NCBI RefSeq assembly: GCF_026314295.1
Contig: NZ_CP111108.1
Location: 186,001 to 250,000, forward strand
Direction of reading: 5' to 3'
DNA: 64,000 nucleotides
Source: Caproicibacterium sp. BJN0003
GTDB lineage: Bacteria > Bacillota > Clostridia > Oscillospirales > Acutalibacteraceae
Of the stretch, positions 47,191 through 64,000 are shown in pieces. How positions within the stretch are numbered: position 1 is the first letter of the stretch; the number at the start of each line of letters is the position of its first letter. The position numbers and the translations under genes were made by a program. The notes under the pieces are model-generated. The model made no database searches. It was not told the DNA's origin and was given only the letters and a program-made list of their open reading frames with translations.

Positions 47191-48360
47191 ATGGAATTTG
47201 AAAAAATCAAAGCACAGGCAGATCAATATATGATGCACACCTATCATCGCTTTTCTGCAGCGCTGGTAAAAGGAAAAAATGCGACCGCATGGGATGCAGA
47301 TGGAAAAAAGTATATTGATTTTACTGCCGGAATCGGTGTAAACAGTCTGGGATATGCCGATCCAAAATGGGTTGCGGCAGTTTCAAAACAGGCGGGAGAA
47401 ATTCAGCACACCTGTAATCTGTTTTATAATCCGCAGGTTACGTCATTAGCAGAGAATCTTTGTAAAACAGCGGGATTTTCAAAAGTGTTTTTTGGAAATA
47501 GCGGTGCAGAAGCAAACGAGTGCGCCGTTAAGGTTGCAAGAAAATATAGTTCTGATCGGTATGGCTTTGACCGCTGCGAAATAATTACCCTTCAAAATTC
47601 TTTTCATGGCAGAACGCTGGCAACTCTAGCTGCCACCGGACAGGAACATTTTCATGAGCTGTTTATGCCGCTGCCGACAGGATTTATTACCGCGGAGCCA
47701 AACCTTCAGAGCGTCATGGAGAAGCTCAGCGATAAGACCTGTGCAATTTTTTATGAGCCGATTCAGGGAGAGGGCGGCGTTTTGCCCCTGACTGCAGAGT
47801 TTGTAAAAGCGCTGCGGAAACTTTGTGATGAAAAGGATATCATTTTGGTGGCGGATGAGGTACAGACCGGTGTGGGGCGTTCCGGAACTTTTTATGCGAC
47901 AGAGCAGTTTGAAGTAAAGCCGGATGTGCTTACCAGTGCAAAGGGGCTCGGCGGCGGTTTGCCGATCGGAGCGTGTTTGGTTGGCGAAAAGTGCGCAGAG
48001 GTCCTCGGTGTTGGTGATCATGGAACCACTTTCGGCGGGAATCCGGTGGTTTGCGCAGGCGCAAATGTGGTTTTGGAGAGACTAAACACACCGGGATTTT
48101 TGCAGGAAGTCGTACAAAAAGGGGCCTTTTTGCAGGAATCGCTTCGTGAAATGAAAAACATTGAAAACGTGCGTGGTATGGGATTGATGGTTGGCGCGAA
48201 GCCAACCGGAAAAACGGCTGCCCAAATTGCAGATCAATGTGTGGAAAACGGATTGCTGGTGCTGACGGCAAAAGATGTTTTGCGCTTTTTACCGCCGCTT
48301 ACCATTACGATTGAGGAATTAAAAACGGGCCTTTCTATTTTGGAAAAGGTACTGGCTTAA
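47191..48360 (+). CDS. argD: Acetylornithine aminotransferase
   Basis: 389 residues, class-III PLP aminotransferase. PLP lysine K251 in TSAKGLGGGLPIG, preceded by VADEVQTGVGRSG. It converts N-acetylglutamate semialdehyde to N-acetylornithine using glutamate. RBS GAGGAGG. Confidence 0.96.
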   Translation: MEFEKIKAQADQYMMHTYHRFSAALVKGKNATAWDADGKKYIDFTAGIGVNSLGYADPKWVAAVSKQAGEIQHTCNLFYNPQVTSLAENLCKTAGFSKVFFGNSGAEANECAVKVARKYSSDRYGFDRCEIITLQNSFHGRTLATLAATGQEHFHELFMPLPTGFITAEPNLQSVMEKLSDKTCAIFYEPIQGEGGVLPLTAEFVKALRKLCDEKDIILVADEVQTGVGRSGTFYATEQFEVKPDVLTSAKGLGGGLPIGACLVGEKCAEVLGVGDHGTTFGGNPVVCAGANVVLERLNTPGFLQEVVQKGAFLQESLREMKNIENVRGMGLMVGAKPTGKTAAQIADQCVENGLLVLTAKDVLRFLPPLTITIEELKTGLSILEKVLA

Positions 48361-48381
48361 AATTTTTGAGGAGGCTTATCG

Positions 48382-49284
48382 ATGAAACATCTTTTAAAAA
48401 TGCTGGATCTTTCTTCTCAGGAGATCACAGAGATTCTGGACCTTGCCGATCAGCTCAAGTATGAGAAAAAGCATGACATTGCGCATCCGCGTCTGGCAGG
48501 AAAAACATTGGGAATGATTTTTGAAAAGGCCAGTACCCGTACGCGTGTTTCTTTTGAAGTTGGTATGTATCAGCTGGGAGGACTGCCGATCTTTCTTTCT
48601 TCAAAAGATATGCAGATCGGCCGCGGAGAACCGGTGCAGGATACCGCAAGGGTTCTTTCCCGGTATCTGGACGGAATTATGATTCGTACCTTTAAACAGA
48701 GCGAGGTAGAAGCGCTGGCTAATTTTGGGACTATTCCGATCATTAATGGTCTGACCGATTTATCTCACCCATGTCAGGTGCTTGCAGATCTGATGACGAT
48801 CCGTGAGAAGCATGGCAGTTTGGACGGCCTTAAAATGTGCTTTATCGGCGATGGAAATAATATGATGAATTCCCTGATCGTCGGTGGCCTTAAGATGAAG
48901 ATGGAAGTATCGGTTGCCTGCCCGCAGGGGTACCGCCCTGCAGCAGAAGTGCTGGATTTTGCACAGGCCTATCCGGCGTTCAGCATGACGACCGATCCGA
49001 AAGAAGCAGCTGTTGGAGCAGATGTCGTAATTACAGACGTCTGGGCTTCAATGGGGCAGGAAGATGAAGCTGCAAAACGCCGCAAAGCGTTTGAAGGATT
49101 TCAGATAAATGCAGAAGTGATGGCAAAAGCCAAAAAGGATGCCATGGTACTGCATTGCCTTCCGGCACATCGCGGAGAAGAAATTACTGCGGATGTATTT
49201 GAAAAACATTCCACAGAAATCTTTGAAGAGGCTGAAAACCGTCTACATGCTCAAAAAGCAGTCATGGTAAAACTGCTCGGCTGA
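48382..49284 (+). CDS. argF: Ornithine carbamoyltransferase
   Basis: 300 residues. Carbamoyl-phosphate loop S51-T52-R53-T54, LSHPCQVLADL and HCLPAHRGEE for ornithine. It makes citrulline, which argG uses, closing the pathway encoded in this operon. Last gene, followed by a terminator. An anabolic role fits the operon. Confidence 0.96.
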   Translation: MKHLLKMLDLSSQEITEILDLADQLKYEKKHDIAHPRLAGKTLGMIFEKASTRTRVSFEVGMYQLGGLPIFLSSKDMQIGRGEPVQDTARVLSRYLDGIMIRTFKQSEVEALANFGTIPIINGLTDLSHPCQVLADLMTIREKHGSLDGLKMCFIGDGNNMMNSLIVGGLKMKMEVSVACPQGYRPAAEVLDFAQAYPAFSMTTDPKEAAVGADVVITDVWASMGQEDEAAKRRKAFEGFQINAEVMAKAKKDAMVLHCLPAHRGEEITADVFEKHSTEIFEEAENRLHAQKAVMVKLLG

Positions 49285-50770: not shown

Positions 50771-51964
50771 TTATGCAAGTGATTTTACAAAATTGGCCAT
50801 CCGATTGGTTGCTTCCAAAATGTTTTCATTAGAAGTCGCATAGGAAAGACGGACAAAATCCCCGCATTCTTTTCCAAGACCAATTCCGGGAACAGTACCA
50901 ACGAGCTTTTCTTCCAGCAGCCGTTCGGAAAATTCCTGTCCGGAGAGTCCGGTATCGGAGACATCAATAAAAACATAAAAGGCGCCGGAGGGGCGAACAT
51001 AATGAATCTGTGGAATTTTATCAAGCTGTTCCATGATTAACTTTCTGCGTTCCTTAAACTTTTTCTGCATTTCTTTTACGGCTGCTTCTGTTTCAGGGAG
51101 ATCTACAGAATTTGCAAGACCAATTTGCAAAAAAGTGGGGCAGCAGGTGGAAGAATACTGATGAAATTTTAAAATATAATCCATATGCCGTTTGTCAACT
51201 GCTAAATATCCAAGCCGCCAGCCGGTCATGGCATAGGTCTTCGAAAAACCGCACATGATAAGCGCCCGTTCCCGCATTCCGGGAAAAGAAGCCATCGAGC
51301 AGAAAGGTTCATCATAAGTTAGACGGTCATAAATTTCGTCCGAAAAGACGAGAAGATCATATTTACAGGCAAGTTTTGCGAGACCTTCCAAAATTTCGCG
51401 GTGATAAGCAACACCGGTTGGATTGCAGGGATTATTGAGAATAATCATTCTGGTACGGTCGGTGATATGAGCTTCGGTTTCAGCAAGATCGATCTGAAAG
51501 CCATTTTCTTCTTTTAAAGGAAGCGAAACGACAGTGCCCCCTGCTAGATGAACCAAATTCTCATAGCTCACAAAAGCAGGGGAAAAGATGATAACTTCAT
51601 CTCCCGCACTAATTGTAGAGAGCAACGCATTGTTAATTGCTTCTGCACCGCCGCATGTCACAAGAATTTCGGTCGCAGGGTCGTAATGAACTCCCATATC
51701 CCGCTCCAGAATTTTCGAAATCTTTTCGCGTAGTTCCGGCATGCCGCGGTTGGAACCATAATGTGTAAAGTTGGCTTCCAAAGCGGCGATCGTTGCTTTT
51801 TTAATTGGTTCCGGCGTATTGAAATCCGGTTCCCCTGCTACCAGAGGAATTACTGTTTTGCCGGCGTCTTTCATGGCACGGACTTTATCGAGCATGACGC
51901 GAATTAAAGAGGAAGAAGTGGAATCCATACGTTCGGCGCCTGCAAAAATCTCTCTTTTTTTCAT
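50771..51964 (-). CDS. Class I/II PLP-dependent aminotransferase
   Basis: 397 residues from ATG 51964, seven bases after GGAGG. Fold-type I aminotransferase; PLP lysine K242 in GFSKTYAMTGWRLG, with NNPCNPTGVA and DEIYDRL upstream. Closest in pattern to aspartate/aromatic AspC-like enzymes, specificity unknown. It lies 13 bases after the 2-hydroxyacid dehydrogenase gene and shares its promoter, which has the PucR-type repeats. I infer it handles the amino group of the compound used by this locus. Confidence 0.88.
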   Translation of the reverse strand: MKKREIFAGAERMDSTSSSLIRVMLDKVRAMKDAGKTVIPLVAGEPDFNTPEPIKKATIAALEANFTHYGSNRGMPELREKISKILERDMGVHYDPATEILVTCGGAEAINNALLSTISAGDEVIIFSPAFVSYENLVHLAGGTVVSLPLKEENGFQIDLAETEAHITDRTRMIILNNPCNPTGVAYHREILEGLAKLACKYDLLVFSDEIYDRLTYDEPFCSMASFPGMRERALIMCGFSKTYAMTGWRLGYLAVDKRHMDYILKFHQYSSTCCPTFLQIGLANSVDLPETEAAVKEMQKKFKERRKLIMEQLDKIPQIHYVRPSGAFYVFIDVSDTGLSGQEFSERLLEEKLVGTVPGIGLGKECGDFVRLSYATSNENILEATNRMANFVKSLA

Positions 51965-51977
51965 AAGAAATCCTCCT

Positions 51978-52949
51978 TTAGCTGGCTTTGTCAATCGGGT
52001 TTGGGTTGTTTACAGGAAAAGTAGGAACCTGACCCTTGAGTGTTTCGACAATTCCCAAAGCAGCCTGATAACTCATTCGTTCCAGAGAACGTCCAGTAAA
52101 GGCTGCGGTATGCGGAGAGACAATTACATTATCCAAATGGAGAATGGGGTTATTCATATTTGGAATCCCACCATCAAAAACATCGATAGCAGCACCGGCA
52201 ATCTTTTTTTCTGCCAATATTTTAGTCAATGCTTTTTCATCGGTCACTTCTCCGCGGGCCGTGTTGATCAGGTAAGCGGTTGGCTTCATCAAAGCAAGCT
52301 TTTCCGCGCTGAGAAGATTCCTGGTAGAAGAGGTGAGCGGTACATGAAGGGAAAGGAAATCAGCGGAGCGGATCACCTCATCCAGATCATTTGTGAGAAT
52401 TCCGTATTCTGTTTTCATTGGCTTAGTTAAACGACGTTTATGGCCGATAACGTTCATGCCAAGTCCGTAAAATGCTTTTTTGGCGACCATGGTACCAATA
52501 GTTCCAACACCAATAATTCCAAGTGTTTTGCCCTCTAGGTCCATTCCGCAGATAGAACGAATTTCCCAGTTCCCTGCTTTGAGTCCTTCGTTATATTCAA
52601 AGGTACGTTTAGCAAGAAGCAAAATCAGACCGATTGTATATTCTGCTACGGAATTTTGATTTGCCTTAGCAGCATTTGTAACTTGAATCCCAAGTTCAGT
52701 AGCACTTTTTACGTCAATTCCATTGACACCGACTCCATGCATGGAGATTGCTTTCAGTTTTGGGCAGTTTTCCATAATTCTGCGGCTGATTGTTGCGTTG
52801 CGGGTCAGAATTGCATCGCAATCCGACGCTTCTTTTAAGACCGTCTCTTCATCAATTCCCGTTCCCATTCGGATTTCATATCCCTGTTCTCGGAGAAGTT
52901 CTTTTCCGGATTCGTTGATATCTTCTGTAATTAGCACCTTATAACTCAT
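51978..52949 (-). CDS. D-2-hydroxyacid dehydrogenase (SerA-like)
   Basis: 323 residues from ATG 52949, nine bases after AAGGAG; an ATG nine bases earlier touches the ribosome site and is less likely. Rossmann motif GIIGVGTIGTMVAKKA, NAD-binding INTARGEVTDEKAL and the catalytic His in VSPHTAAFTG. It lacks the C-terminal ACT domain of long phosphoglycerate dehydrogenases, so a general 2-oxoacid reductase is as likely as a serine-pathway enzyme. In the locus it could reduce the 2-oxoacid made by the adjoining aminotransferase, serving as electron sink. Confidence 0.85.
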   Translation of the reverse strand: MSYKVLITEDINESGKELLREQGYEIRMGTGIDEETVLKEASDCDAILTRNATISRRIMENCPKLKAISMHGVGVNGIDVKSATELGIQVTNAAKANQNSVAEYTIGLILLLAKRTFEYNEGLKAGNWEIRSICGMDLEGKTLGIIGVGTIGTMVAKKAFYGLGMNVIGHKRRLTKPMKTEYGILTNDLDEVIRSADFLSLHVPLTSSTRNLLSAEKLALMKPTAYLINTARGEVTDEKALTKILAEKKIAGAAIDVFDGGIPNMNNPILHLDNVIVSPHTAAFTGRSLERMSYQAALGIVETLKGQVPTFPVNNPNPIDKAS

Positions 52950-53285
52950 ATATGCCATCTCCTTAAAAGCACAGCGTGTACTAGCTAGTATGAAATTTAG
53001 AACGTGTAATCCTGCATTTGAGAACATTTTAACAAGTCTTTACTGCTTCTGCAATCGACGATCAGTCCAGAAAACATGAAAGTTATGGACGATAAGTCCA
53101 TCTAAAAAGTAAAACCTTATATGAACAATTTTTTTTAAATAATTCATTATAAAATTTTTATTTATAAAAAATCATTGACAGAAGTATTTTGGCATTATTA
53201 TAATAAGGGAAACGACGATGTTTTTCTTTGTATGCAAAGAGAAGCATCGCCGTTTTTTTACAAGCTTTAAGGAGGTGTATGAGTT
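52950..53285. promoter_or_regulatory. Divergent control region of the PucR locus
   Basis: 336 bases without a gene. Leftward promoter: TTGCAG (53054-53049), 17-base spacer, extended -10 TAAAAT (53031-53026). A TCGAC-N5-GTCCA site (53055-53069) abuts its -35, and a perfect TGGAC-N5-GTCCA site (53086-53100) lies 31 bases further. Rightward promoter: TTGACA (53175-53180), 18-base spacer, TATAAT (53199-53204), followed at once by a terminator-like hairpin. Confidence 0.65.
53211..53258 (+). promoter_or_regulatory. Leader hairpin directly downstream of the pucR promoter
   Basis: CGACGATG with CATCGCCG (one mismatch) and an inner CTTTG-TATG-CAAAG stem, followed by seven Ts. It begins within about ten bases of the predicted start, so most transcripts might end here unless the hairpin is overcome. 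A short RNA product is also possible. Confidence 0.65.
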
Positions 53286-54437
53286 TTGCCACTGCGTATA
53301 AGAGAGATTGTTGATCGTCAAATCCTAAATGGAATTAAACTAGTAGCAGGGGCCTCTGGAGCAGAAAATTCAGTTCTATGGGTAAATGTAATGGAAATTT
53401 TGGATACCCCTGATTCTCTGCAAAAGGATGAGTTACTGGTGACGACTGGATATCAGCTTGCAAATGAAAAGCGATACAGCGATTTAATTCAAAAACTGGA
53501 ACGCAGAGGGATTAGTGGAATTTTAATTCAGCTTGGCTATTATGTAGATGATGTGCCGGATTATATTATTCGGGAAGCAAATCGCTTGCATTTGCCGATT
53601 TTAACGATTCCGCCTCATTTGACCTTTTCGGCGATCATGCACATTCTAATTGGAGAAATTCAGCGTCAGACTGCAGCACAGGAAGATGAGAGTACAAAAA
53701 AGTTGTTGCCTCTTTTAAAGAAGCACATGGAACAGAATCAACCATCAAAAGAATTGCCTGGATATATTTTTGTAGCGGTCCCTGCTCCGGACCGTCAAGT
53801 TCCGCCAAAAGAATTGCAGGAGGGAATTAACCGTATTTCGTCTTACCTGTATTCGCAGGCTGCATGGTATATCCGGTCGCAGCTTCCGGATGGAAAAACG
53901 GTTTTTTATCTGAATTTAGCGGAAAAAAATACGATTCAGGATGTTATTTTTGAGCTGACGATTCTTCTTACTTTTTTATCAGAAGAGCAGAGAATTAGCT
54001 ATTATGTAGGGGAATATGACTTGGAAGACACTGACGATTTAGAAAAAAGTTTCTTTGCAGCTGCAAAATGCTGTAAAGCTTTAGAACAAATTGGCGCAAA
54101 ACGAGGCGTCTTTCGCAGCAAAAACATGTCGTTTTTTTCTATTTTCAGCAGTTTTCATCAAAACGGGGAAGAAATTTTGCGCAGTCAGCGACCAGAGCTG
54201 CAAAAGCTGCTTGATTATGATCGCACTCATAGTACGCACTATGTTCATACACTTCGGGTATATCTTGCACATGAAGGCAGTCAGGCAAAAGCCGCAAGCA
54301 GACTTTTTATTCACCGCCATACAATGGCAAAGCGGCTCGAAAAAATCTGTGAATTGGGGAATTGGGATTTGGAAGATTATTATACACGTACCTATCTTTC
54401 GCTTTGCTTGATGCTGCATGATTATTATGGAGTTTAA
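53286..54437 (+). CDS. PucR-family transcriptional regulator
   Basis: 383 residues from TTG 53286, ten bases after AAGGAGG. N-terminal PucR domain (VLWVNVMEILDTPDSLQKDELLVTTGY), a middle GGDEF-like/CdaR-type region without catalytic motifs, and a C-terminal PucR helix-turn-helix (SQAKAASRLFIHRHTMAKRLEKI). PucR proteins activate purine or amino-acid catabolic genes in response to substrate. It lies between the two operons of the locus; shared repeats in both control regions are candidate sites. Confidence 0.9.
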   Translation: MPLRIREIVDRQILNGIKLVAGASGAENSVLWVNVMEILDTPDSLQKDELLVTTGYQLANEKRYSDLIQKLERRGISGILIQLGYYVDDVPDYIIREANRLHLPILTIPPHLTFSAIMHILIGEIQRQTAAQEDESTKKLLPLLKKHMEQNQPSKELPGYIFVAVPAPDRQVPPKELQEGINRISSYLYSQAAWYIRSQLPDGKTVFYLNLAEKNTIQDVIFELTILLTFLSEEQRISYYVGEYDLEDTDDLEKSFFAAAKCCKALEQIGAKRGVFRSKNMSFFSIFSSFHQNGEEILRSQRPELQKLLDYDRTHSTHYVHTLRVYLAHEGSQAKAASRLFIHRHTMAKRLEKICELGNWDLEDYYTRTYLSLCLMLHDYYGV

Positions 54438-55054
54438 AAATGCAGGAATCAATTAGGCTAAATTCAAATACTCAATTTATGGAAAAAGAATTATAAAAGA
54501 GAATTTATACAGATATAGAGAATAAAAGGGAAAATGCGGTGGACAAAAAGTCCATTTAAATCGCAAATTATGGACCAAAAGTTTACGGGATACAAAAAAG
54601 ATTTCAATTTTAAAAAATATAGTTACTTCTTAACAAAATAAAAAAGAAGCAAAAAAATCGATTGACAAAGCGGATTATGTGCCGTATCATGTTATCAAAC
54701 AAAGGCGTTGACCTCCTGGCTTACAGAAGGTCAACGCCTTTCGTTTATTTTTTAAAAGAGGAGGGCTACTTTGAACTTTGTTTCTATAAAATGAAAGCAC
54801 AAAAATTTAACTTTTAAAGAGAGTGAATATTTAAACGATTATAGGATGCTGAAAAGAAAACGTTAAATTTTAAAATTGAATTTTATAGAGAGAAATAATT
54901 CATAATGGCGATTTTAAATCCGAAAAGTTATAAAAATGTGTATCCTGCTTTTTTTCGGAGAGAACAAAATTGCTCAAAGGCCCAAATCGTTTTATTTTGA
55001 AAATAGTGTCCGTTGGTTTTTATTTTTTGCTTCAAAGTTAAAGGAGGGTACATT
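54438..55054 (+). promoter_or_regulatory. Control region of the transporter operon
   Basis: 617 bases without a convincing gene. Sites: TGGAC-N5-GTCCA (54540-54554), and a weaker copy TGGAC-N5-GTTTA (54571-54585) with the same 31-base spacing as near pucR. Promoter TTGACA (54662-54667), 17-base spacer, TATCAT (54685-54690). Then a hairpin with Ts (54701-54755). From about 54757 there is GAGGAGGG and a seven-codon frame from TTG 54770, which might be a leader peptide. The last 250 bases before the binding-protein gene show nothing that I recognise. Confidence 0.6.
54701..54755 (+). terminator. Terminator-like hairpin just after the transporter promoter
   Basis: AAAGGCGTTGACCT (54701-54714) and AGGTCAACGCCTTT (54728-54741) form a perfect 14-base stem with a 13-base loop, followed by CGTTTATTTTTT. 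The predicted start is about ten bases upstream. Confidence 0.8.
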
Positions 55055-56212
55055 ATGAAAAAAATTCGCATTCTTGCACTTGCTCTTGCAGCAACGATGG
55101 TGACGGCGAGCGTGACCGGCTGCGGGAGTGGGAGCAGCTCAGGTTCTGCTTCCACGGCAGCAGCTTCTGGAGGAAGCATTAAGATCGGGTTAGTTGCTCC
55201 TCTTTCAGGAGACAGCGGCGTTATGGGCGAGAGCCAGCAGCACGGCTATGAGCTTGCAATCAATGAGATCAATGCAGCCGGCGGCGTCAATGGAAAGAAA
55301 CTGGAATTAACCACTTATGATGATCAGGGCGATCCGCAGAAAGCAGCTTCCGGCGCTCAAAAGTTTGCGGATGATGAATCTATTTTGGCCATTGGCGGTT
55401 CCTGCAACTCTTCCGCTACTTTGGCGATGGCTCCGATTATAGATGCTGCAGGACTTCCGGATTTGGTTGTTAGCTCCAGTTCACCTGCTTTAACAGGCTG
55501 CAGCGACTATTTCTTCCGGATGGCTGTGCAGGATAACGCTGTTGGTCCGCAGATGGCACAGGCTTTGTTGGATCGGGGCAAAAAAAATATTGTAGTATTC
55601 TATCCGAATAACGATTATGGCACAGGCTTAAATACAAATTTGAAAAATTATATGGAGCAAAAAGGTGGAAAGGTACTTAACAGTTTAACTTATCTTGCTA
55701 CCGATCAGGATTTTACTGCTCAGATTACGACGGCAAAAAGCTTGAATCCAGATGCAATTGCACTTTGCGGAACTCCGGCGGATTCCGGCTTGATTATTAA
55801 GCAGCTCAAGCAGAATGGAGTAAATGTTCCGATTATCGGTGGTACCGGTCTCTACAATTCCAAAACAGTTGAAATTGCAGGAGATTCCTGCGAAGGCATT
55901 TATGTGATCGGCGTTTATGTTGCGAATAATCCGGATCAGAAAGTACAGGATCTTGTAAAGAAATTCCAGGAAAAATATGGCTCTGTACCAGACGGATTTG
56001 CAGCACTTGCTTATGATCAGATGTATGTCATTGCAGAAGCAGCAAAGAAAGCCGGCGATAAGTTGTCCCGTGATACTTTAAAGGATGCACTCAAAGAGAC
56101 AAATTATAATGGCGTTACAGGGACGGTTAAATTTGACAGCAATAATGACTGGGTTCGCGATTATCTGACTTTGACCGTTAAAGACGGAAATTTTGTTATG
56201 GCAGATAAATAA
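55055..56212 (+). CDS. Branched-chain-amino-acid-type ABC transporter substrate-binding lipoprotein
   Basis: 385 residues from ATG 55055 behind AAAGGAGGG. Lipoprotein signal with lipobox SVTGC, then a Ser/Gly linker. The type-I periplasmic binding fold of LivK is clear: IKIGLVAPLSGDSGVMGE, then INEINAAGGVNGKKLEL and DDQGDP. It binds an amino acid or related compound; contact residues do not tell which. First gene of the rightward operon. A hairpin with arms CGGCTGGA/TCCAGCCG (56249-56272) follows and likely reduces expression of the distal genes. Confidence 0.92.
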   Translation: MKKIRILALALAATMVTASVTGCGSGSSSGSASTAAASGGSIKIGLVAPLSGDSGVMGESQQHGYELAINEINAAGGVNGKKLELTTYDDQGDPQKAASGAQKFADDESILAIGGSCNSSATLAMAPIIDAAGLPDLVVSSSSPALTGCSDYFFRMAVQDNAVGPQMAQALLDRGKKNIVVFYPNNDYGTGLNTNLKNYMEQKGGKVLNSLTYLATDQDFTAQITTAKSLNPDAIALCGTPADSGLIIKQLKQNGVNVPIIGGTGLYNSKTVEIAGDSCEGIYVIGVYVANNPDQKVQDLVKKFQEKYGSVPDGFAALAYDQMYVIAEAAKKAGDKLSRDTLKDALKETNYNGVTGTVKFDSNNDWVRDYLTLTVKDGNFVMADK

Positions 56213-56239
56213 ACCACAGCGGTTGGAAGCTGGAAGAAG

Positions 56240-56281
56240 GACAGCGGCTGGAGAAAATTTTCCAGCCGTTGTTGTTCTTTA
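56240..56281 (+). terminator. Intercistronic hairpin after the binding-protein gene
   Basis: AGCGGCTGGA and TCCAGCCGTT pair around GAAAATTT, followed by GTTGTTCTTT. The downstream gene follows after 25 bases, so this is probably a partial terminator or message stabiliser. Confidence 0.6.
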
Positions 56282-56305
56282 TCAAAGCTTTGGGGGTGTA
56301 AGAAT

Positions 56306-57196
56306 ATGGATTTTGTACAGCAAGTAATTAACGGCTTGGCACAAGGCGGTATTTATTCGCTGATTGCCATTGGCTGGACGACAGTTTTTGGAATCGTGGG
56401 TGTTATGAACTGGACTCACGGTGAAGTTTATATGTTGGGTGCTTTTGCAGGGTATTTCCTTTGTACTATGGGAATGCCGTTTATTCCAGCATTGCTTTTA
56501 TCTATGCTGATTGGTTCGGGAATTGCAATCGCAATTGATGAATTTGGATATAAACCGCTTCGTAAAAAAGGAAAAATGGCAGTTGCAGGATTTATCACTG
56601 CACTGGGCCTTTCCACATTCCTCCGCTATAGCGCCAATGCGGCATTTACGCCAAATCCGCGTGCATATCCGGACGTAATTGATTATCAGCTCATTCCGAT
56701 TTTGACAGTTGACGGTAAAACGTTGACGATCAGCTCCATTCATTTGACGATTCTTGCGGGAACGATGCTGATCATGGTTCTTCTGGAACTCTTTATCCGC
56801 CGTACCATCACCGGAAAAGCGATGCTGGCAGCCTCTCAGGATATGCAGACGCTGGGATTGATGGGTGCGAACAGCGAAGTTCTGATTAAAGTCACTTTTG
56901 CAATCAGCGGCGCCTTGGGTGCGGCTGCCGGTGTTTTTGTCGGCACGATTTATGCGATTAACCCAATGATGGGTGCACTTGCAGGGCTCAAAGGCTGGGC
57001 TGTTGCAATTCTTGGAGGAATTGGTTCCATTACCGGTTCTTTAATTGGAGGACTGATCCTCGGAGTGGCAGAAAACTTGACGGCCGGATTTATTTCTACC
57101 GGCTATAAAGATGCAATCGGCTTCATTATTATGATTGCAGTTCTTTTGATTAAGCCGACCGGTTTGCTTGGCTTTAAGTTTGATGAAAAAGTTTGA
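56306..57196 (+). CDS. livH: ABC transporter permease LivH-type
   Basis: 296 residues with about eight hydrophobic segments. LivH signature: NGLAQGGIYSLIAIGWTTVFGIVGVMNWTHGE starts the protein, in pieces typical of the family, and GGIGSITGSLIGGLILG near the C-terminus. RBS GGGGGTG upstream. One half of the transport channel for the amino-acid-type importer. Confidence 0.94.
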   Translation: MDFVQQVINGLAQGGIYSLIAIGWTTVFGIVGVMNWTHGEVYMLGAFAGYFLCTMGMPFIPALLLSMLIGSGIAIAIDEFGYKPLRKKGKMAVAGFITALGLSTFLRYSANAAFTPNPRAYPDVIDYQLIPILTVDGKTLTISSIHLTILAGTMLIMVLLELFIRRTITGKAMLAASQDMQTLGLMGANSEVLIKVTFAISGALGAAAGVFVGTIYAINPMMGALAGLKGWAVAILGGIGSITGSLIGGLILGVAENLTAGFISTGYKDAIGFIIMIAVLLIKPTGLLGFKFDEKV

Positions 57197-57210
57197 GAGG
57201 AGGGCTATAC

Positions 57211-58299
57211 ATGAAAAACGATTCGGCAGCAAGTGAAGTGCTGACGGCAGGAATCGAAAGTGTTCCTGCTGATGTGCCTACAAAAAAGAAGTTTGCCCTC
57301 CCCAAGGGGAACTCAAAATGGTTCTTTGGAACGAGTGGAAAGACCACTTTTATTGGAGCAACAATCTTCTTATTGGTGATCTGTTTTTTGGATAGTTTTA
57401 CGCCGGTTAAAGTGATTCCGGCTTATGCTAAGCATATTCTGGTGAGCTGCTTGATTTATGCAATCCTGGCGCTTGGTCTCAACTTCGTTTCCGGGTATAT
57501 CGGGCAGACTTCTTTAGGCCACGCGGCTTTCTTTGGAATCGGTGCCTATGGAACGGCAATGTTGATGAAATATGCCGGAGTGAATTTTTGGCTTACCATT
57601 CCAATTGCCGCCTGTATCGCCGCTTTGGCGGCTCTTCCGTTGGCAGCTTCTGCATTGCGCGTAAAAGGTTCCTTCCTCGTCGTCATTACATATGGCTTCG
57701 GTGAAGTGCTGAGATATGTCGCAATTAATACGGATTCGCTCGGAGGATCTTCCGGTATTCCGGGAATTAAAGTTCCAACTATTTTTGGAATTAAAATGAG
57801 CAAGATTGGGCCTACTGGAAAAGAAGGATATCTGATTCTTTGTTTCCTCATTGTTGCTCTGCTTGCTTTCTTTATGAATCGGATTGAAAAATCCTGCACC
57901 GGATATGCGTTTGCGGCAATTCGGGAAGATGAAATTGCAGCGGTCGCTATGGGAATTCACACCAAATATTATAAGATACTGGCGTTTGTTATTTCGGCCT
58001 TTATCTGCAGCATTGCGGGCAGTATTCAGGTGGCTTATTCTTCATTTGTCAGTCCGGAGCTTTTAACTTCCACACAGTCCATCCTGATTCTTACCATGGT
58101 AATCGTCGGTGGACGCAGAAGCATTAAAGGCGCAATCCTTGGAGCGGGGCTGATGACGATTTTGCCGGAAATTCTTCATTCTCTCAAGGATGCAATCGGG
58201 CTTTCGTTCGATCCTTGGTATATCCTCTACGGCTTGATTCTTGTGATTGTGATGCGTGTACGTCCTCAGGGATTCTGGGGAAACAGCAGCGATGCCTGA
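57211..58299 (+). CDS. livM: ABC transporter permease LivM-type
   Basis: 362 residues from ATG 57211 after GAGGAGGG. It has a non-homologous hydrophilic N-terminus of about 45 residues, then the LivM core: LGLNFVSGYIGQTSLGHAAFFG and the loop GYAFAAIREDEIAA, and ends in MRVRPQGFWG. Pairs with LivH. Confidence 0.94.
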   Translation: MKNDSAASEVLTAGIESVPADVPTKKKFALPKGNSKWFFGTSGKTTFIGATIFLLVICFLDSFTPVKVIPAYAKHILVSCLIYAILALGLNFVSGYIGQTSLGHAAFFGIGAYGTAMLMKYAGVNFWLTIPIAACIAALAALPLAASALRVKGSFLVVITYGFGEVLRYVAINTDSLGGSSGIPGIKVPTIFGIKMSKIGPTGKEGYLILCFLIVALLAFFMNRIEKSCTGYAFAAIREDEIAAVAMGIHTKYYKILAFVISAFICSIAGSIQVAYSSFVSPELLTSTQSILILTMVIVGGRRSIKGAILGAGLMTILPEILHSLKDAIGLSFDPWYILYGLILVIVMRVRPQGFWGNSSDA

Positions 58300-58318
58300 A
58301 AGAAGGGAGTGAATTCTG

Positions 58319-59104
58319 ATGCCAGTATTACTTGAAACGAAAGCGGTCACCAAATCTTTTGGGGGCCTGCTTGCAAACAGTGAAATTGATTTTCATATTG
58401 ATCAGGGAGAGATCGTCTCTATTATTGGGCCGAATGGTTCCGGAAAGACCACTTTTTACAATCTTCTGACGGGAATTGCTCCGGCAACTTCCGGGCAGGT
58501 GTTTTTTGAAGGGGAAAATATTACGCATAAAAAACCGGATCAGATTACAAAGATGGGGATTTCCAGAACTTTTCAGAATATCCGCCTTTTTGGAGATTTG
58601 ACGGTAGAAGAAAATATTATAATTGCACGTCACTGCCGTCGAAAGACAGAAATAATGGGTGCTTTTCTAAATACACCGACCTATAAAAACGAACTCAAGA
58701 CCAACGATCAGTTTGTCAAAGAATGCCTGAGCTATGTCGGTATTTATGATAAAAAGGATTGGAAGGCAAAGAATCTGCCTTATGGAATGCAGCGCCGCCT
58801 GGAAATTGCCAGAGCTTTAGCGACCGAACCAAAACTAATTCTTTTGGATGAACCGGCTGCCGGAATGAATCCTCACGAGACAGATGAGCTGATGGAAATT
58901 ATCCGGAGACTGAAAAACGATCAGTATTCTATTATCCTAATCGAGCATGCAATGCGTCTTGTAATGAAAGTTGCCGAAAGAGTGGTTGTATTTGATCACG
59001 GGCAGAAGATTGCAGATGGACTTCCGAAAGAGGTCAGCTCAGATCCGGTCGTCATCGAAGCTTATCTCGGAAAGGATGATGATGATGATGATGAAATTGC
59101 TTGA
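58319..59104 (+). CDS. livG: ABC transporter ATP-binding protein LivG-type
   Basis: 261 residues. Walker A GPNGSGKTT (38-46), family insert GISRTFQNIRLFGDLTVEEN, a relaxed signature NLPYGMQRRLEIARAL, Walker B LILLDEPAAGMNP. The C-terminus ends in a run of Asp (about residues 253-258) encoded by GAT repeats that also form the livF start. Confidence 0.95.
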   Translation: MPVLLETKAVTKSFGGLLANSEIDFHIDQGEIVSIIGPNGSGKTTFYNLLTGIAPATSGQVFFEGENITHKKPDQITKMGISRTFQNIRLFGDLTVEENIIIARHCRRKTEIMGAFLNTPTYKNELKTNDQFVKECLSYVGIYDKKDWKAKNLPYGMQRRLEIARALATEPKLILLDEPAAGMNPHETDELMEIIRRLKNDQYSIILIEHAMRLVMKVAERVVVFDHGQKIADGLPKEVSSDPVVIEAYLGKDDDDDDEIA

Positions 59105-59804
59105 GGTTGAGAATTTACATGTTTATTACGGAAATATCCATGCCCTGAAAGGTTTGAGTCTAGAGGTAGAGGAGGGCGAGATCGTTTCTTTAATTGGTGC
59201 TAACGGCGCCGGAAAGACGACTTTGCTCACAGCCATTATGAGTCAAGTCAAAAAATCGGAGGGCAGTGTCTCCTTTATGGGAAAAAGCTGCGAAGGAATG
59301 CTGCCGCCGCAGATTGTGCGGGAAGGCATGACTATGGTTCCGGAGGGCCGCCGTGTGTTTCCGCGCAGCAGTGTGTTGGATAATCTGCTCTTGGGGGCTT
59401 ATTTTCGAAAAGACCGAGCTCAAATTAAAAGTGATGTTGAAAGCGTTTTCAATATTTTTCCCAGACTGGAAGAACGAAAAAGCCAGCTTGCCGGAACCCT
59501 TTCCGGCGGCGAACAGCAGATGCTTGCAATGGGGCGTGCACTGATGAGCTGCCCGAAGCTTTTGCTGCTTGATGAGCCTTCAATGGGGCTTTCTCCTTTG
59601 ATTGTAAAGCAAATATTTAAAACAATCCGTGATATCAATCAGAAATCCGGAACAACGGTGATGCTGGTAGAGCAGAATGCAAATCAGGCACTAAAGGTTG
59701 CCAGCCGCGGATATGTTATTGAGACCGGCGAAGTTGTTTTGGCAGATACCGCAGCCAACTTGCTTTCTAATCAGCAAGTTAAAGAGGCTTATCTTGGAAG
59801 TTGA
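59085..59804 (+). CDS. livF: ABC transporter ATP-binding protein LivF-type
   Basis: About 239 residues. Start ambiguous: six consecutive ATG codons lie in frame (59076-59093); 59085 is nine bases after AAAGG. Walker A GANGAGKTT, signature LSGGEQQMLAMGRAL, Walker B LLLDEPSMGLSP. It overlaps the end of livG. Completes the importer with LivG, LivH and LivM. Confidence 0.94.
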   Translation: MMMKLLEVENLHVYYGNIHALKGLSLEVEEGEIVSLIGANGAGKTTLLTAIMSQVKKSEGSVSFMGKSCEGMLPPQIVREGMTMVPEGRRVFPRSSVLDNLLLGAYFRKDRAQIKSDVESVFNIFPRLEERKSQLAGTLSGGEQQMLAMGRALMSCPKLLLLDEPSMGLSPLIVKQIFKTIRDINQKSGTTVMLVEQNANQALKVASRGYVIETGEVVLADTAANLLSNQQVKEAYLGS

Positions 59805-59821
59805 AAAGGAGACATGTTTTT

Positions 59822-60652
59822 ATGCGTGGGGCTGTTTTTGCAAACGACGAACGAATTTATTTTGCAGCGGAAGCTTTAAAAAAACTAGGAATCGAAATTG
59901 ACTGCGCAAACGATTACTCAAGAGGACAGAATCTTCTGGTGAAAAATCCCCAAAATTATGATTTTGTTTTGCTTCCGGTTCGCGGAACAGAAGATGGAAC
60001 CATTTTGCAGTCAGCAGGAACATCGCTTTTTATCGGAGACTTTCTAAAAGGGCTTCCAGAGGGGACGCCGGTTTTTACCGGGAGACAAACAGAATATCTT
60101 CGTCAATTAAATTTAACCCTCTATGACCCATTTAAAGATCCGGAGGTTTCCAAAAAAAATGCGGAGCTTACAGCCGAAGGCGTTTTGTGGTTTCTTCTGG
60201 AGTATACAAAGAAAAGCCTTTTTGAAAATTCTTATGATGTGATCGGTGCCGGTCATACTGGAAAAGCCATTACGGAGATTTTAAGAAAGCTGAGACTGCC
60301 GGTAAGACAGGCTGCACGGAATGGACATCTGGATACGATTTCTATGGAGCAATGGGAAAGAGAGACCCCGTCTGATGTAGTAATTGTTACAGTTCCGGCG
60401 TTGGTGCTGCCGGTGGAACTTGCAGAAAGCTGGAAAAAACCAGTTTTTGTACTGGATATTTCCAGTGGACAGGTGGGAGCAGATCCAAAGATTGCAGAGC
60501 TTAAAAATATTACTTATTATGCGGCACCACCGTTGCCGAGCAAGGTAGCTCCGGAGTCGGCAGGAGTATTGATTGCAAATTATATTGGTTGGATAATGTC
60601 TGACAAAAATATCCGGAAAGCAGATATTGCTCCGGCAAAGAACGAGGGATGA
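59822..60652 (+). CDS. Dipicolinate synthase subunit A-like oxidoreductase
   Basis: 276 residues from ATG 59822, 11 bases after AAGGAG. A Rossmann-like protein of the DpaA/SpoVFA family: N-terminal domain ending FVLLPVRGTEDGTIL, NAD(P)-binding DVIGAGHTGKAITEIL, and a C-terminal block FVLDISSGQVGADP with APPLPSKVAPESAG, which parallels SpoVFA. The subunit-B partner (flavoprotein) is absent. Its neighbours are amino-acid transport and oxidation genes, with a four-base overlap into the next, so a catabolic role such as processing a cyclic imine is more likely than spore dipicolinate synthesis. The reaction is unknown. Confidence 0.7.
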   Translation: MRGAVFANDERIYFAAEALKKLGIEIDCANDYSRGQNLLVKNPQNYDFVLLPVRGTEDGTILQSAGTSLFIGDFLKGLPEGTPVFTGRQTEYLRQLNLTLYDPFKDPEVSKKNAELTAEGVLWFLLEYTKKSLFENSYDVIGAGHTGKAITEILRKLRLPVRQAARNGHLDTISMEQWERETPSDVVIVTVPALVLPVELAESWKKPVFVLDISSGQVGADPKIAELKNITYYAAPPLPSKVAPESAGVLIANYIGWIMSDKNIRKADIAPAKNEG

Positions 60653-60978
60653 TTTTGAGAGTAATCGAACACCCAATTTTGGGTACGTTGACAGATCTTA
60701 AAAAAGTCACGCTGTATTTTAATGGAGAGCCAATCGAGGCTGTCGAAGGGGAACCAATTGCAGCGGCACTTTTAAATGCGGGCATAAAAGTATTCCGTAC
60801 AACGGCAAAACGCCATGAACCGCGCAGCGTTTTTTGCGCCATCGGGCGTTGTACCGACTGTATGATGATTGTAGATGGAGTCCCCAATACGCGCACTTGT
60901 GTAACGCCGGTTCATGACGGAATGCATGTGGAGCGGCAGGAGGGACTCGGTGTAGTTCGAAAGGAGGCAGACAAATGA
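60649..60978 (+). CDS. [2Fe-2S] ferredoxin-like subunit of an amine/amino-acid dehydrogenase
   Basis: 109 residues; ATG 60649 overlaps the preceding stop, and a TTG six bases later is an alternative. Cysteine pattern CAIGRCTDC plus TC later is that of plant-type [2Fe-2S] domains found as HcnA- or OoxA-type small subunits. It lies before its FAD subunit. It should carry electrons between the flavin subunits. Confidence 0.85.
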   Translation: MILRVIEHPILGTLTDLKKVTLYFNGEPIEAVEGEPIAAALLNAGIKVFRTTAKRHEPRSVFCAIGRCTDCMMIVDGVPNTRTCVTPVHDGMHVERQEGLGVVRKEADK

Positions 60979-62111
60979 AAACACTGGAAACAGAGGTTGC
61001 GATTGTCGGAGCCGGTTCTGCCGGACTTTCAGCTGCCTGTCAGGCACGCAATGCCGGAGCAAAGGTATTGGTCATTGATGAAAACAGCCGCCCCGGCGGG
61101 CAGCTTTTTAAACAGATTCATAAATTTTTTGGTTCTCATGAACATCAGGCCGGAACCCGTGGTTATGTGATCGGGCAAAAACTTCTGAAAAAAACGCAGG
61201 ACTGCGGAGCAGATGTCATGCTCAATAGCCTCGTTTATGGAATTCAGCCCGAAGATCTCACGATGGGCATTATCCAGAATGGGGAAAATTGTCAGCTGCA
61301 CGCAAAAAAAATCATTATTGCAGCGGGCGCAAAGGAAAACTATTTGCCGTTTCCCGGTTCTACGCTGCCGGGCGTAATGGGTGCGGGCGCTGCACAGACC
61401 ATGATTAATGTGAACCGGGTCCTTCCCGGTAAAAAAATTGTAATGATGGGTTCCGGAAACGTAGGTTTGATTGTTTCTTATCAGTTGATGCAGGCAGGCG
61501 CAGATGTTCTCGGAATCGTGGAAGGCGCTTCAAAAATCGGCGGATACGGCGTCCATGCCGGAAAGATCCGCAGAGCGGGGATACCGTTTTATCTGGGACA
61601 TACGATCAAACAGGTATATGGAAAAGATTGTGTGGAAGCGGTCGAAATTGCAAAGGTAGATGAAAAGTTTAATCCGATCGACGGGACTGAGATGACGATT
61701 GAAGCGGATACCGTTTGTATGGCAGTAGGTCTCAATCCTATGACGGAGCTTGCATGGATGGCGGGCTGTCAGTTTGATTTTATTCCTGCTTTCGGCGGAC
61801 ATGTTCCGCTGCATGATTGGAATATGGAAACGACGATTCCCGGTGTTTACGTCGCCGGAGATATTACCGGCGTGGAGGAAGCTTCTACCGCTATGGAAGA
61901 AGGAAATCTTGCTGGAGTTGCTGCAGCCGAAGCTTTGGGCTATCTGAGTGAGAAGGATGCAGCAGAGAAAAAAGCCGCAATCGTAGAACGGCTCAATACA
62001 TTGCGCTGCGGACCTTTTGGAGAAGGACGCAGAAAGTTTAAAGAACATCAGATTGCAGATATGGAAGCGCTCAAATGCGGTGAATTTGTGGGGAGGTGCA
62101 TTGAGAAATGA
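60975..62111 (+). CDS. FAD/NAD(P)-dependent oxidoreductase subunit (HcnB/OoxA-like)
   Basis: 378 residues. FAD motif VAIVGAGSAGLSAACQAR (about 8-25), GGQLFKQ, and an NAD(P)-binding motif MMGSGNVGLIVSYQL in the middle. A third conserved site near the end, VYVAGDITGVEEAS, binds FAD. The family forms the alpha-like subunit of multi-subunit amino-acid oxidases, for example in opine, hydroxyproline or glycine oxidation. It overlaps the ferredoxin gene and the next by four bases each. Confidence 0.88.
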   Translation: MKTLETEVAIVGAGSAGLSAACQARNAGAKVLVIDENSRPGGQLFKQIHKFFGSHEHQAGTRGYVIGQKLLKKTQDCGADVMLNSLVYGIQPEDLTMGIIQNGENCQLHAKKIIIAAGAKENYLPFPGSTLPGVMGAGAAQTMINVNRVLPGKKIVMMGSGNVGLIVSYQLMQAGADVLGIVEGASKIGGYGVHAGKIRRAGIPFYLGHTIKQVYGKDCVEAVEIAKVDEKFNPIDGTEMTIEADTVCMAVGLNPMTELAWMAGCQFDFIPAFGGHVPLHDWNMETTIPGVYVAGDITGVEEASTAMEEGNLAGVAAAEALGYLSEKDAAEKKAAIVERLNTLRCGPFGEGRRKFKEHQIADMEALKCGEFVGRCIEK

Positions 62112-62638
62112 TTGAGAAACAAGGAATCATTTATACCGGGTTTCCGTCAAAGGAAGAACTCATGTCCTGTCCTGGAGTTCCCAGTGAAGAGCGAATGAAA
62201 AAAGGGCGTGTAGCGGTCATTGAATGTGTTCAGCAGATTCCCTGTAATCCCTGCGCCAGTGCTTGCCCTATGGGTGCGATCACAATTGGGGAAAACATTA
62301 CGAATCTTCCACATCTGAATGAGGAAAAATGTACCGGCTGTGGGCTGTGCATTGCGAAATGTCCTGGCCTTGCAATTACGGTCGTCAATAAGGCTTTCGG
62401 AGAAGGAGAGGCTTCCATTGATTTTCCATTTGAATATTTGCCGCTTCCTAAAGAGGGCGATATTGTGGATGCGGTTTCCCGTGCAGGAGAGCCGGTCTGT
62501 AAAGGCAGAATTCTCAAAGTGAAAAATCTTGCAGCTTATGCGGGAACAACTGTTATCTCCATGGCAATTCCGGTGGAGTTTGCTGATACGGTTCGCAGCA
62601 TGAAGCGCCTGCCGAATCCGGCAGTGGAAGGAGCGTGA
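62108..62638 (+). CDS. 4Fe-4S dicluster ferredoxin-like subunit
   Basis: 176 residues. Cysteine groups CNPCASACP (near 46) and CTGCGLCIAKCP (near 77) fit two [4Fe-4S] clusters; the first group gains a cysteine from EC just before. The C-terminal half, from about 110, has no recognised motif. Added ferredoxin subunits suggest transfer to ferredoxin rather than oxygen, in keeping with an anaerobe. Confidence 0.83.
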   Translation: MIEKQGIIYTGFPSKEELMSCPGVPSEERMKKGRVAVIECVQQIPCNPCASACPMGAITIGENITNLPHLNEEKCTGCGLCIAKCPGLAITVVNKAFGEGEASIDFPFEYLPLPKEGDIVDAVSRAGEPVCKGRILKVKNLAAYAGTTVISMAIPVEFADTVRSMKRLPNPAVEGA

Positions 62639-62643
62639 ACAAA

Positions 62644-62922
62644 ATGAATGATGATGTTCTGATTTGCCGCTGTCAGGAGATTACCCGCGGAGAGATCATT
62701 CAGGCGATCCATGATGGCGCGACGACAGTAGACGGTGTAAAACGCCGCACCAGAGCTTGTATGGGACTTTGTCAGGGAAAGACCTGCGAACGTCTGATCC
62801 AGGGAATTATTGCGGAGGAAACGGGGAAAAATCGTGCGGAAATTCAGCCGCAGAAAACCCGTATGCCGGTGCGTCCGCTGAAATTAAGTGTGCTGGGAGG
62901 GGACGGAAAAGATGAAGTATGA
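62644..62922 (+). CDS. BFD-like [2Fe-2S] protein
   Basis: 92 residues from ATG 62644, ten bases after AAGGAG; a GTG at 62635 is too close to the ribosome site. BFD pattern: CRCQEITRGEI and ACMGLCQGKTC, giving four cysteines. Such domains are fused to or encoded beside HcnB-like subunits and probably form an extra cluster site in the complex. Confidence 0.87.
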   Translation: MNDDVLICRCQEITRGEIIQAIHDGATTVDGVKRRTRACMGLCQGKTCERLIQGIIAEETGKNRAEIQPQKTRMPVRPLKLSVLGGDGKDEV

Positions 62923-64000
62923 TGTCATTATCGTCGGCGGAGGCATTATTGGTTGTTCTGTCGCCTATTATCTTTCCAAACGGAATCAGAAAGTTCTGCT
63001 CCTTGAAAAGCGTGATCATGCACAGGGCTCTGCCGGTGCTACAGATGGTGTTGTCAGTTATCATACCAAAAAACCGGGAGCGCAGATGGATTTGGCAGTT
63101 CAGTCTTTAAAGCTCTACCAGACGCTGGAAAGGGAACTGGGAGAGTCCATTGAGTTTGTTCCTGACTGCGGCGGAATGCAGTTGGCAGAAAACAAGGATC
63201 AGTGGGATATGCTCAGTAAGATTGCAGATAAACAGCGCGAAAGCGGTGTGGATATTCGTATGATTTCAGTCGATGAGGCAAGAAAGATTGAACCTCAGCT
63301 GGCACCTGATCTTTATGGAGTGCTTTATGCACCATGCGGAGGCAAAGTAGAGCCGATCAAGCTCACAATGGCATTTTTGCACGCGGCAAAACGGCAGGGA
63401 GCCGAAGTGAAAAACCATCTGGGAGTTACCGAAATCAAAAAAGACAGTGCAGGCGAAGTAACGGGTGTTGTGACCGAAGACGGTAGCTTTTATGAAGCGC
63501 CGAAAGTGGTGATTTCAAGTGGCTCCTGGTCGGCTGAGATTGGAAAAATGGCGGGACTCGATCTGCCGATTAAACCTCGCCGCGGACAGCTTTTAATAAC
63601 AGAAGCGGTTGGTCCGTTTATGCATTGCACAGCACAGTGTGCTTTATATAATGTAATCAAATTTATGCCGGAAACAATTAAAGACCCTAAAATTCTTCAT
63701 ATAGGTGCTTCTCTAAGTATCCATCAAACGAAAAATGGAGGGCTTTTGATCGGGGGTACCCGCGAATGGGCCGGATTTGATCGTTTTAATTCTTTGGAAG
63801 CAGTGGAAGCAATCGCACATCGGGCACTGCGCTTTTTCCCGGCTCTTAAAGATGTCAGCGTCATTCGTGCGTTTGCAGGATTGCGTCCCTATACGCCAGA
63901 TGGCAAGGCATTGATTGGCGGAACAAAAAAAGTGCCGGGTCTTTATCTGGCTGCAGGTCATGAGGGTGATGGAATTGCTTTGGCACCAATTACCGGAAAA
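62912..64000 (+). CDS. FAD-dependent oxidase/dehydrogenase, DAO family (HcnC-like), 3' end outside window
   Basis: About 363 residues are visible from ATG 62912, which overlaps the BFD-like gene by 11 bases; GGGAGGGGA lies upstream. FAD-binding VIIVGGGIIGCSVAYYL (about 5-21), then GATDGVVSYHTKKPG and later RPYTPDGKALIGG with LYLAAGHEGDGIALAP. The D-amino-acid oxidase/sarcosine oxidase-beta family oxidises C-N bonds of amino acids and N-substituted amino acids. Here it should be the substrate-binding subunit of the complex. Missing only a short C-terminus. Confidence 0.9.
   Translation, partial: MKYDVIIVGGGIIGCSVAYYLSKRNQKVLLLEKRDHAQGSAGATDGVVSYHTKKPGAQMDLAVQSLKLYQTLERELGESIEFVPDCGGMQLAENKDQWDMLSKIADKQRESGVDIRMISVDEARKIEPQLAPDLYGVLYAPCGGKVEPIKLTMAFLHAAKRQGAEVKNHLGVTEIKKDSAGEVTGVVTEDGSFYEAPKVVISSGSWSAEIGKMAGLDLPIKPRRGQLLITEAVGPFMHCTAQCALYNVIKFMPETIKDPKILHIGASLSIHQTKNGGLLIGGTREWAGFDRFNSLEAVEAIAHRALRFFPALKDVSVIRAFAGLRPYTPDGKALIGGTKKVPGLYLAAGHEGDGIALAPITGK

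Follow-up and report, generated by a model that had tools for sequence, protein, structure and literature searches.

We analysed a 64,000-nucleotide stretch of the Caproicibacterium sp. BJN0003 genome (hereafter 'the window'; bases 186001-250000 of the 2.46-Mb single-contig genome), whose right-hand end holds a PucR-family regulator gene, a LIV-type transporter, a relative of the spore protein DpaA and a five-subunit flavin/iron-sulphur enzyme. From sequence comparison, we propose with a probability of roughly one half that this locus is a substrate-inducible catabolic operon, combining PucR control, LIV uptake, a five-subunit D-amino/imino-acid dehydrogenase and an imine-converting step by the DpaA-like protein. 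The complex itself belongs to a known kind, of which it represents a bacterial version that is widespread; what sets the locus apart is the DpaA-like gene, the wiring of LIV and PucR genes with a proposed operator, and a divergently transcribed gene pair. All genes named for the locus in the original prediction (PucR, LIV, DpaA-like, Fer2, FAD/NAD, 4Fe-4S, BFD and DAO) are present as open frames. The divergent 2-hydroxyacid dehydrogenase and aminotransferase genes are likewise real, but both lie outside the range assigned to the locus at that time, which began at position 52950. The genes are:

50771-51964, minus strand: class I/II aminotransferase, second gene of the divergent pair (PF00155, 215 bits; 13-bp gap to the 2-hydroxyacid dehydrogenase gene)
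51978-52949, minus strand: D-isomer-specific 2-hydroxyacid dehydrogenase (2HADH), first gene of the divergent pair (PF02826/PF00389)
53286-54437, plus strand: PucR-family transcription regulator (PF07905, PF13556)
55055-56212, plus strand: LIV-type substrate-binding protein, livK (PF13458, 258 bits)
56306-57196, plus strand: LIV permease, LivH (named from its translation; genes next to the complex in loci L129 and L132 are 41% identical)
57193-58299, plus strand: LIV permease, LivM (named from its translation)
58319-59104, plus strand: LIV ATPase, LivG (named from its translation)
59085-59804, plus strand: LIV ATPase, LivF (named from its translation)
59822-60652, plus strand: DpaA-like NAD(P)-binding protein, proposed cyclic-imine reductase (PF16924, 31.6 bits; cut-off 29.2)
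60649-60978, plus strand: plant-type [2Fe-2S] subunit, gamma-like, Fer2_4 (PF13510, 110 bits; CX4CX2CX12C)
60975-62111, plus strand: FAD/NAD subunit, alpha-like (PF07992; two GxGxxG sites and E183)
62108-62638, plus strand: dicluster [4Fe-4S] subunit, archaeal pdhF-like by position (PF00037; CX5CX2CX3C and CX2CX2CX3C)
62635-62922, plus strand: BFD-type [2Fe-2S] subunit, archaeal pdhX-like by position (PF04324, 53 bits; PF17806)
62912-64000, plus strand: DAO-family FAD catalytic subunit, beta-like (PF01266, 254 bits; HEGDG clade)

From the DpaA-like gene onward, neighbouring genes overlap, by 4 bases at each junction as far as the BFD gene and by 11 bases between BFD and DAO, and the DpaA-like protein is therefore probably translationally coupled to the enzyme complex. 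The DAO gene is cut by the window edge; its full-length genome copy (L003) ends 75 bases further on. None of the five complex subunits matched an NCBIfam model at its cut-off among the matches listed (up to 25 per subunit).

The enzyme core proved to be common. In a search with the FAD/NAD subunit, true kin of at least 49% identity were found in 11/295 genomes of the order (host included), separated by a clear gap from general flavoproteins at 31-38%, while a profile of the 4Fe-4S subunit matched 125/398 sampled genomes of the phylum at 1e-30. We examined 40 of the places matched by this profile, mostly the best-scoring ones, and found all five parts in 34 and the order Fer2, FAD/NAD, 4Fe-4S, BFD, DAO in 32, with complete but rearranged complexes in L106 and L124. 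Around FAD/NAD matches in the order, 11 of 13 loci kept the gene order of the window; the exceptions are L049, with DAO first, and L052, with DAO upstream and no 4Fe-4S match, and a fourteenth locus, the second complex of the sister species (L059), was left out of this count. The original prediction would have counted a gene order conserved in no relative as a refutation; the order of the five complex genes recurs in the phylum and the order alike. The 4Fe-4S protein, regarded there as an addition, is not peculiar to the locus, as its family is widespread in the phylum and its gene order has an archaeal precedent. These loci are not independent, since several genomes contribute two or three of them.

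In six loci (L113-L116, L118 and L120), a 4Fe-4S relative of 43-48% identity stands alone, with the other parts of the complex missing, and we excluded these loci from the complex counts; in L113, its neighbours are genes for a phosphatase, a phosphoribosyltransferase and a GMP-synthase domain. The cysteines that bind the clusters are conserved in 51/51 4Fe-4S sequences (the six lone ones included), 42/42 Fer2 and 42/42 BFD sequences, and the gamma motif CX4CX2CX11-12C occurs in all 42 Fer2 sequences, window included. Of the 34 phylum loci with a complete complex, 4 contain at least three LIV genes, a count with no base rate for comparison, and a plasmid search with the 4Fe-4S protein returned 2 weak records. 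FAD/NAD and 4Fe-4S are fused in some complexes, among them the second complex of the host (L004 7081-11902; G000:C1:2229000-2248000), which consists of DAO, BFD, a fused FAD/NAD-4Fe-4S protein of 526 amino acids and Fer2, and lies with a Glt_symporter gene and next to genes reading as GlpA/B/K-like. In the open-access literature, outside which most subscription papers lie, we found no description of the bacterial 4Fe-4S version or of a catabolic DpaA paralog. The original prediction knew of no described pathway with exactly this gene set; nor did the set turn up in the 53 other loci compared here, among which no kin of the DpaA-like or PucR genes were found.

But, where do the electrons go? 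The second GxGxxG of the FAD/NAD subunit and the acidic residue (E or D) that closes the following strand are conserved in 49/49 sequences (alignment column), which suggests NAD as acceptor in the anaerobic complexes; in the Priestia and Citricoccus alpha subunits, the NAD-type site is degenerate by eye. Electron transfer to ferredoxin, as originally predicted, thus finds no support, and reducing ferredoxin with electrons from amino acids is energetically hard without coupling. Such coupling, with flavin joining ferredoxin and NAD to an amino-acid donor in place of a simple NAD-linked enzyme, would fit the two 4Fe-4S clusters and the FAD/NAD subunit kept in the complexes examined as well as a weak similarity of the latter to Nfn-type chains. 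Thioredoxin reductases and sarcosine oxidase match better, however, indicating that the Nfn similarity is a general one, and we regard flavin-based coupling as improbable, slightly more so than the two substrate alternatives weighed below.

In Thermococcus, pdhF encodes a ferredoxin-like (4Fe-4S) protein of about 19 kDa and pdhX a BFD-like protein of about 10 kDa, sizes that agree with those of the 4Fe-4S and BFD subunits. In gene order, the window series FAD/NAD, 4Fe-4S, BFD, DAO resembles the archaeal pdhA-F-X-B L-proline dehydrogenase of Thermococcus; in contrast to the archaeal complex, Fer2 is a separate gene in the window and the catalytic subunit belongs to another clade. According to the gene descriptions in PMC4364671, the alpha-gamma-delta-beta L-proline dehydrogenase genes of T. 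litoralis are consecutive and similar to T. profundus pdhA, pdhF, pdhX and pdhB. Together with this common order, the LIV genes and a proline-racemase gene that lie close to related complexes from a different clade (L129, L132, L125) would fit an operon for an L-proline (or other L-imino acid) dehydrogenase of the archaeal kind. We consider this unlikely, since the window DAO lies outside the GHGF groups while a DAO paralog of the host (DAO_p) lies inside them, since the archaeal L-proline dehydrogenase beta subunit 1y56_B (alpha4beta4 type) ranks first among the matches of DAO_p but seventh among those of the window DAO, and since the window DAO matches glycine oxidases best.

PMC4575208 defines the alpha-beta-gamma relatives, flavin/Fe-S amino-acid dehydrogenases such as OpnDH, D-HypDH, HCN synthase and L-ProDH, and the window DAO agrees with their beta subunit, being of the DAO family with an N-terminal GxGxxG. 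A DAO-type beta subunit, an FAD-binding alpha subunit and two kinds of [2Fe-2S] site are shared with the opine dehydrogenase OdhABC and the HCN synthase HcnABC as outlined in the same source (PMC4575208), whereas the window has a 4Fe-4S subunit and split genes, and our DAO tree was built without the OdhABC and HcnABC catalytic subunits. In the alpha subunit of that family, GxGxxG and a second [2Fe-2S] site lie in one chain, while the window has separate genes with the 4Fe-4S gene between them; Priestia and Paenibacillus clusters likewise hold two separate (2Fe-2S) genes. The second [2Fe-2S] motif of the window (CXC, 32 residues, CX4C) is longer than the CXCX15-20CX4C given in PMC4575208. This kinship, which extends to D-hydroxyproline dehydrogenases, supports the original idea of uptake followed by C-N bond oxidation by a multi-cofactor complex.

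Which substrate class is oxidised? The window DAO has a ThiO/SoxB-type domain with an AGLRP motif whose Arg aligns to that of glycine oxidases, a pattern present in 19/25 HEGDG rows and 0/25 others. It has a HEGDG/HEGAG motif in common with 24 further DAO sequences, which come from 23 loci. In the DAO tree, all HEGDG/HEGAG rows form one 28-row clade (support 90/86, not starred), in which the window groups with L046, L047, L048 and L096 (100/99). Genes related to a PRK07475-type member of the Asp/Glu racemase family, so named in L046 and L051, lie within the retrieved stretch of 11/23 HEGDG loci vs 0/24 other complex loci (Fisher p = 8e-5, a value that ignores the relatedness of loci). A plasmid search with the DAO sequence yielded 1586 matches, of which 40 were listed and three clusters inspected; these clusters, from Priestia, Paenibacillus and Citricoccus, carry the HEGDG/HEGAG motif in their DAO subunits, which fall in the 28-row clade, and hold proline-racemase, DapA-like and aldehyde-dehydrogenase genes, families assigned to 4-hydroxyproline epimerase pathways in PMC4113996. 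Two HEGDG loci with LIV genes have neighbours that would suit the use of hydroxyproline or betaines: L105 (1-12865) unites LIV genes, an MTTB-family protein, a HEGDG complex, a DapA-like gene and an aldehyde:ferredoxin oxidoreductase gene and resembles an anaerobic route for hydroxyproline or betaine, and in L102 (6300-15371), a HEGDG complex stands beside IlvD-like, AcnX, racemase-family and LIV genes. AcnX and MTTB are linked to hydroxyproline or betaines.

Motif clade, racemase linkage and these neighbours favour a D-amino or D-proline-type acid, and we therefore read the complex as a candidate NAD-linked D-amino/imino-acid dehydrogenase. The evidence for such a substrate appears stronger than that for an opine or N-carboxyalkyl lysine, no search having been aimed at opine-type genes. 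The original prediction had listed sarcosine, opines and N-carboxyalkyl lysines, besides hydroxyproline, as candidates, and a dehydrogenase for glycine or sarcosine, opines or N-carboxyalkyl amino acids would agree with glycine oxidases as the best PDB matches of the window DAO, with the subunit plan of opine dehydrogenase and HCN synthase as far as described in PMC4575208, and with one DAO annotated as HcnC (28.6%) and one as ThiO among the 40 plasmid matches listed. The neighbours identified include, in contrast, racemase, LIV, DapA-like, AcnX and OCD genes, and all three plasmid clusters inspected hold proline racemases, so that we judge this alternative about as unlikely as the L-proline one. 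With D-hydroxyproline dehydrogenases of the alpha-beta-gamma type, the window complex shares the HEGDG/HEGAG-bearing DAO kin of proline-racemase clusters, but it has a 4Fe-4S subunit and an intact NAD site, and its operon has neither epimerase nor DapA-like deaminase. The lack of such a deaminase in the operon disfavours a full hydroxyproline route in the host, as do the absence of PF05544 and the failure of a search without positive control to find kin of the Asp/Glu-type racemase; two distant DapA kin occur elsewhere in the host genome at 29 and 25% identity, the better one perhaps being DapA itself.

The DpaA-like protein is a diverged member of its family. PRK08306 matched with 98 bits, below the cut-off of 261, and identity to 17 DpaA-family proteins is 23-27%, with D9, R11, E119 and P192 kept. 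A structure model (pLDDT 84) gave a TM-score of 0.80 to the DpaA crystal structures 3d4o/2rir, well ahead of 2-hydroxyacid dehydrogenases, although the match is partly built in, as the alignment behind this model included DpaA sequences; a first model with pLDDT 40 was useless. Besides the two-domain fold and these four residues, which it shares with DpaA/SpoVFA, the protein differs from it in its low identity, in the missing DpaB partner and in two altered motifs (GGD to AND, SLPGK to PLPSK). Could the gene nevertheless serve sporulation, with the complex feeding or draining the dipicolinate pathway, as fold and family might suggest? The host has a separate true DpaA gene next to a DpaB-like gene (named by reading) elsewhere in its genome, making the window copy a second one. 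For this reason, and since the second copy lies in a transport operon without DpaB and was not found in 7/11 genus genomes, we rejected a sporulation role, which seems highly improbable.

The DpaA family acts on a cyclic imine. OCD-family genes occur near 5/8 non-host loci of the DAO clade of the host paralog and were not found in 39 other complex loci; the count refers to clusters at 35% identity, in which Pfam confirmed two members, a single genome (G286) supplies three of the eight loci, and the absence is weakly tested, as tblastn with the Citricoccus OCD found 1/53 loci. In the host genome, no OCD gene exceeded the cut-off (one PF02423 match, 20.4 bits vs a cut-off of 24). Because OCD genes accompany loci of the paralog's clade and none exceeds the cut-off in the host, we infer that the DpaA-like protein could fill the OCD place as a cyclic-imine reductase. 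OCD/mu-crystallin ketimine (Pyr2C) reductases would then do an analogous job, differing in that they form their own Pfam family (PF02423). OCD-superfamily enzymes act on ketimines from amino-acid oxidation, as stated in PMC4113996.

The conservation of the whole locus is narrow. In the sister species (G168), the full set including the divergent pair is kept at 94-99% identity, with 2HADH 98% identical and again adjoining the aminotransferase gene. The metagenome-assembled genomes (MAGs) of Ruminococcaceae bacteria UBA5450 and UBA5397 have DpaA-like genes with identities of 90 and 88%, respectively (a third match in this search covers a 20-residue stretch), and those operon genes that are present on their contigs follow the same order; UBA5397 is listed in PMC11334527 as Caproicibacterium sp002411615. 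The DpaA-like gene was found in 4/11 genus genomes at 1e-30 (2/7 of high quality), in 7/295 order genomes at 1e-15 (host and G168 at no less than 95% identity, the other five at 29-35%) and in 1/391 class genomes at 1e-22, the host itself. It is an accessory trait. 2HADH was found in 3/80 family genomes at 1e-60, two of them from this genus. That the divergent pair is part of a widely conserved module found no support, as kin near other complexes reach only 30% identity (L051) for the dehydrogenase and 23-38% (L123, L131) for the aminotransferase; what links the pair to the operon is the shared palindrome and the synteny seen in a single sister species.

This palindrome and further putative control elements lie in the two promoter regions of the locus:

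53055-53069, no strand assigned: one-mismatch palindrome copy
53086-53100, no strand assigned: exact palindrome TGGAC-N5-GTCCA, proposed PucR operator, between 2HADH and pucR
53175-53204, plus strand: consensus sigma-70-like promoter (12/12) upstream of pucR, identical in L015
53208-53262, plus strand: hairpin and U-run at the start of the pucR leader (-25.2 kcal/mol, z -7.9)
54540-54554, no strand assigned: second exact TGGAC-N5-GTCCA, proposed PucR operator, upstream of livK
54662-54690, plus strand: promoter-like site (11/12) upstream of livK
54696-54750, plus strand: hairpin directly downstream of the livK promoter-like site (-30.6 kcal/mol, z -9.1)

The exact palindrome occurs twice in the window, once per promoter region, and 0/100 shuffles contained two copies; with one mismatch allowed, the window has three copies, a number reached by 5/100 shuffles. 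Both exact copies are unchanged in the sister species, and the exact sequence was found in 5/174 loci, every one a copy of this same region. The window regulator has both the PucR N-terminal domain and HTH_30, and the palindrome is likely the PucR operator, a pairing drawn from position. Being common to both promoter regions, it plausibly co-regulates the divergent pair with the operon. The hairpins of the pucR and livK leaders hardly differ in the sister species and might act as attenuators or stabilise the 5-prime end. Promoter-like and terminator-like sites were near chance in the scans as a whole (28 vs 21.2 expected and 15 vs 15.2 expected, respectively). A further stable hairpin (56232-56285, z -7.9) lies between livK and livH, and we found no Rfam match at gathering scores and, with ARAGORN, no tRNA in the window. 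As for more distant neighbours, argD- and argF-like genes (arginine synthesis; from translations only) lie upstream at 47191-49284, and a kinase-like gene followed by TatD- and MetG-like genes on the opposite strand (named by reading) lies beyond DAO.

In the scheme that we propose, the genes and their order, the motifs, the clade, the palindromes and the fold of the DpaA-like model are observed, and we infer the substrate class, the acceptor, the pairing of regulator and site, and the roles of the DpaA-like protein and the divergent pair. PucR would sense the substrate and act at the TGGAC-N5-GTCCA sites of both promoter regions, and the LIV transporter would import a D-amino acid or D-proline-type imino acid. 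The DAO-centred five-subunit complex would oxidise it to an imine, passing electrons via its clusters to NAD+, and the DpaA-like protein would use NAD(P)H to convert the cyclic imine, in the simplest case by reduction to the L-form. Should ring opening of the imine yield a 2-oxoacid, the co-regulated aminotransferase might convert this to an L-amino acid, or the 2-hydroxyacid dehydrogenase to a 2-hydroxyacid.

Several observations weigh against this catabolic operon for D-amino or D-proline-type acids. The host has no proline racemase (PF05544 is absent from the genome), and a search without positive control found no kin of the PRK07475-type racemase in it; the D-form would therefore come from outside, or the substrate be of another kind. 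Support for the deep forks within the HEGDG clade is not strong (90/86, then 83/33), the window DAO is merely 34-35% identical to the Bacillales and Citricoccus subunits, and it has R-A-F at the column where 1y56_B has R-T-W (the choice of column is our own reading), an Arg-X-Trp motif in the beta subunit being tied to FMN in PMC4575208. The DpaA-like gene was found neither in the seven genus genomes mentioned above nor in sister operons at 60% identity, and in UBA5397 (MAG locus L013, 6740-9413) the FAD/NAD and DAO frames are interrupted, at 314 and 255 amino acids, by either assembly error or decay. The palindrome, finally, is paired with PucR by its position only.

What would the locus mean for these bacteria? 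A bolder view, which we hold to be a long shot, is that a copy of the spore dipicolinate synthase A was recruited as a new class of cyclic-imine reductase, that, coupled to a 4Fe-4S/flavin dehydrogenase, it gives an anaerobe a racemase-free redox inversion of D- to L-imino acids, and that the wider bacterial 4Fe-4S complex oxidises D-amino/imino acids along a route not characterised so far. Direct and cheap tests of the substrate class are offered by the linkage to racemases, the split into clades and the operator. If a relative of a spore enzyme works in catabolism, it would clearly have been recruited. Since the 4Fe-4S family is so widespread in the phylum and the complex subunits match no NCBIfam model at cut-off among the matches listed, oxidation of D-amino or proline-type acids may take place in many anaerobes along a pathway missed in annotation.

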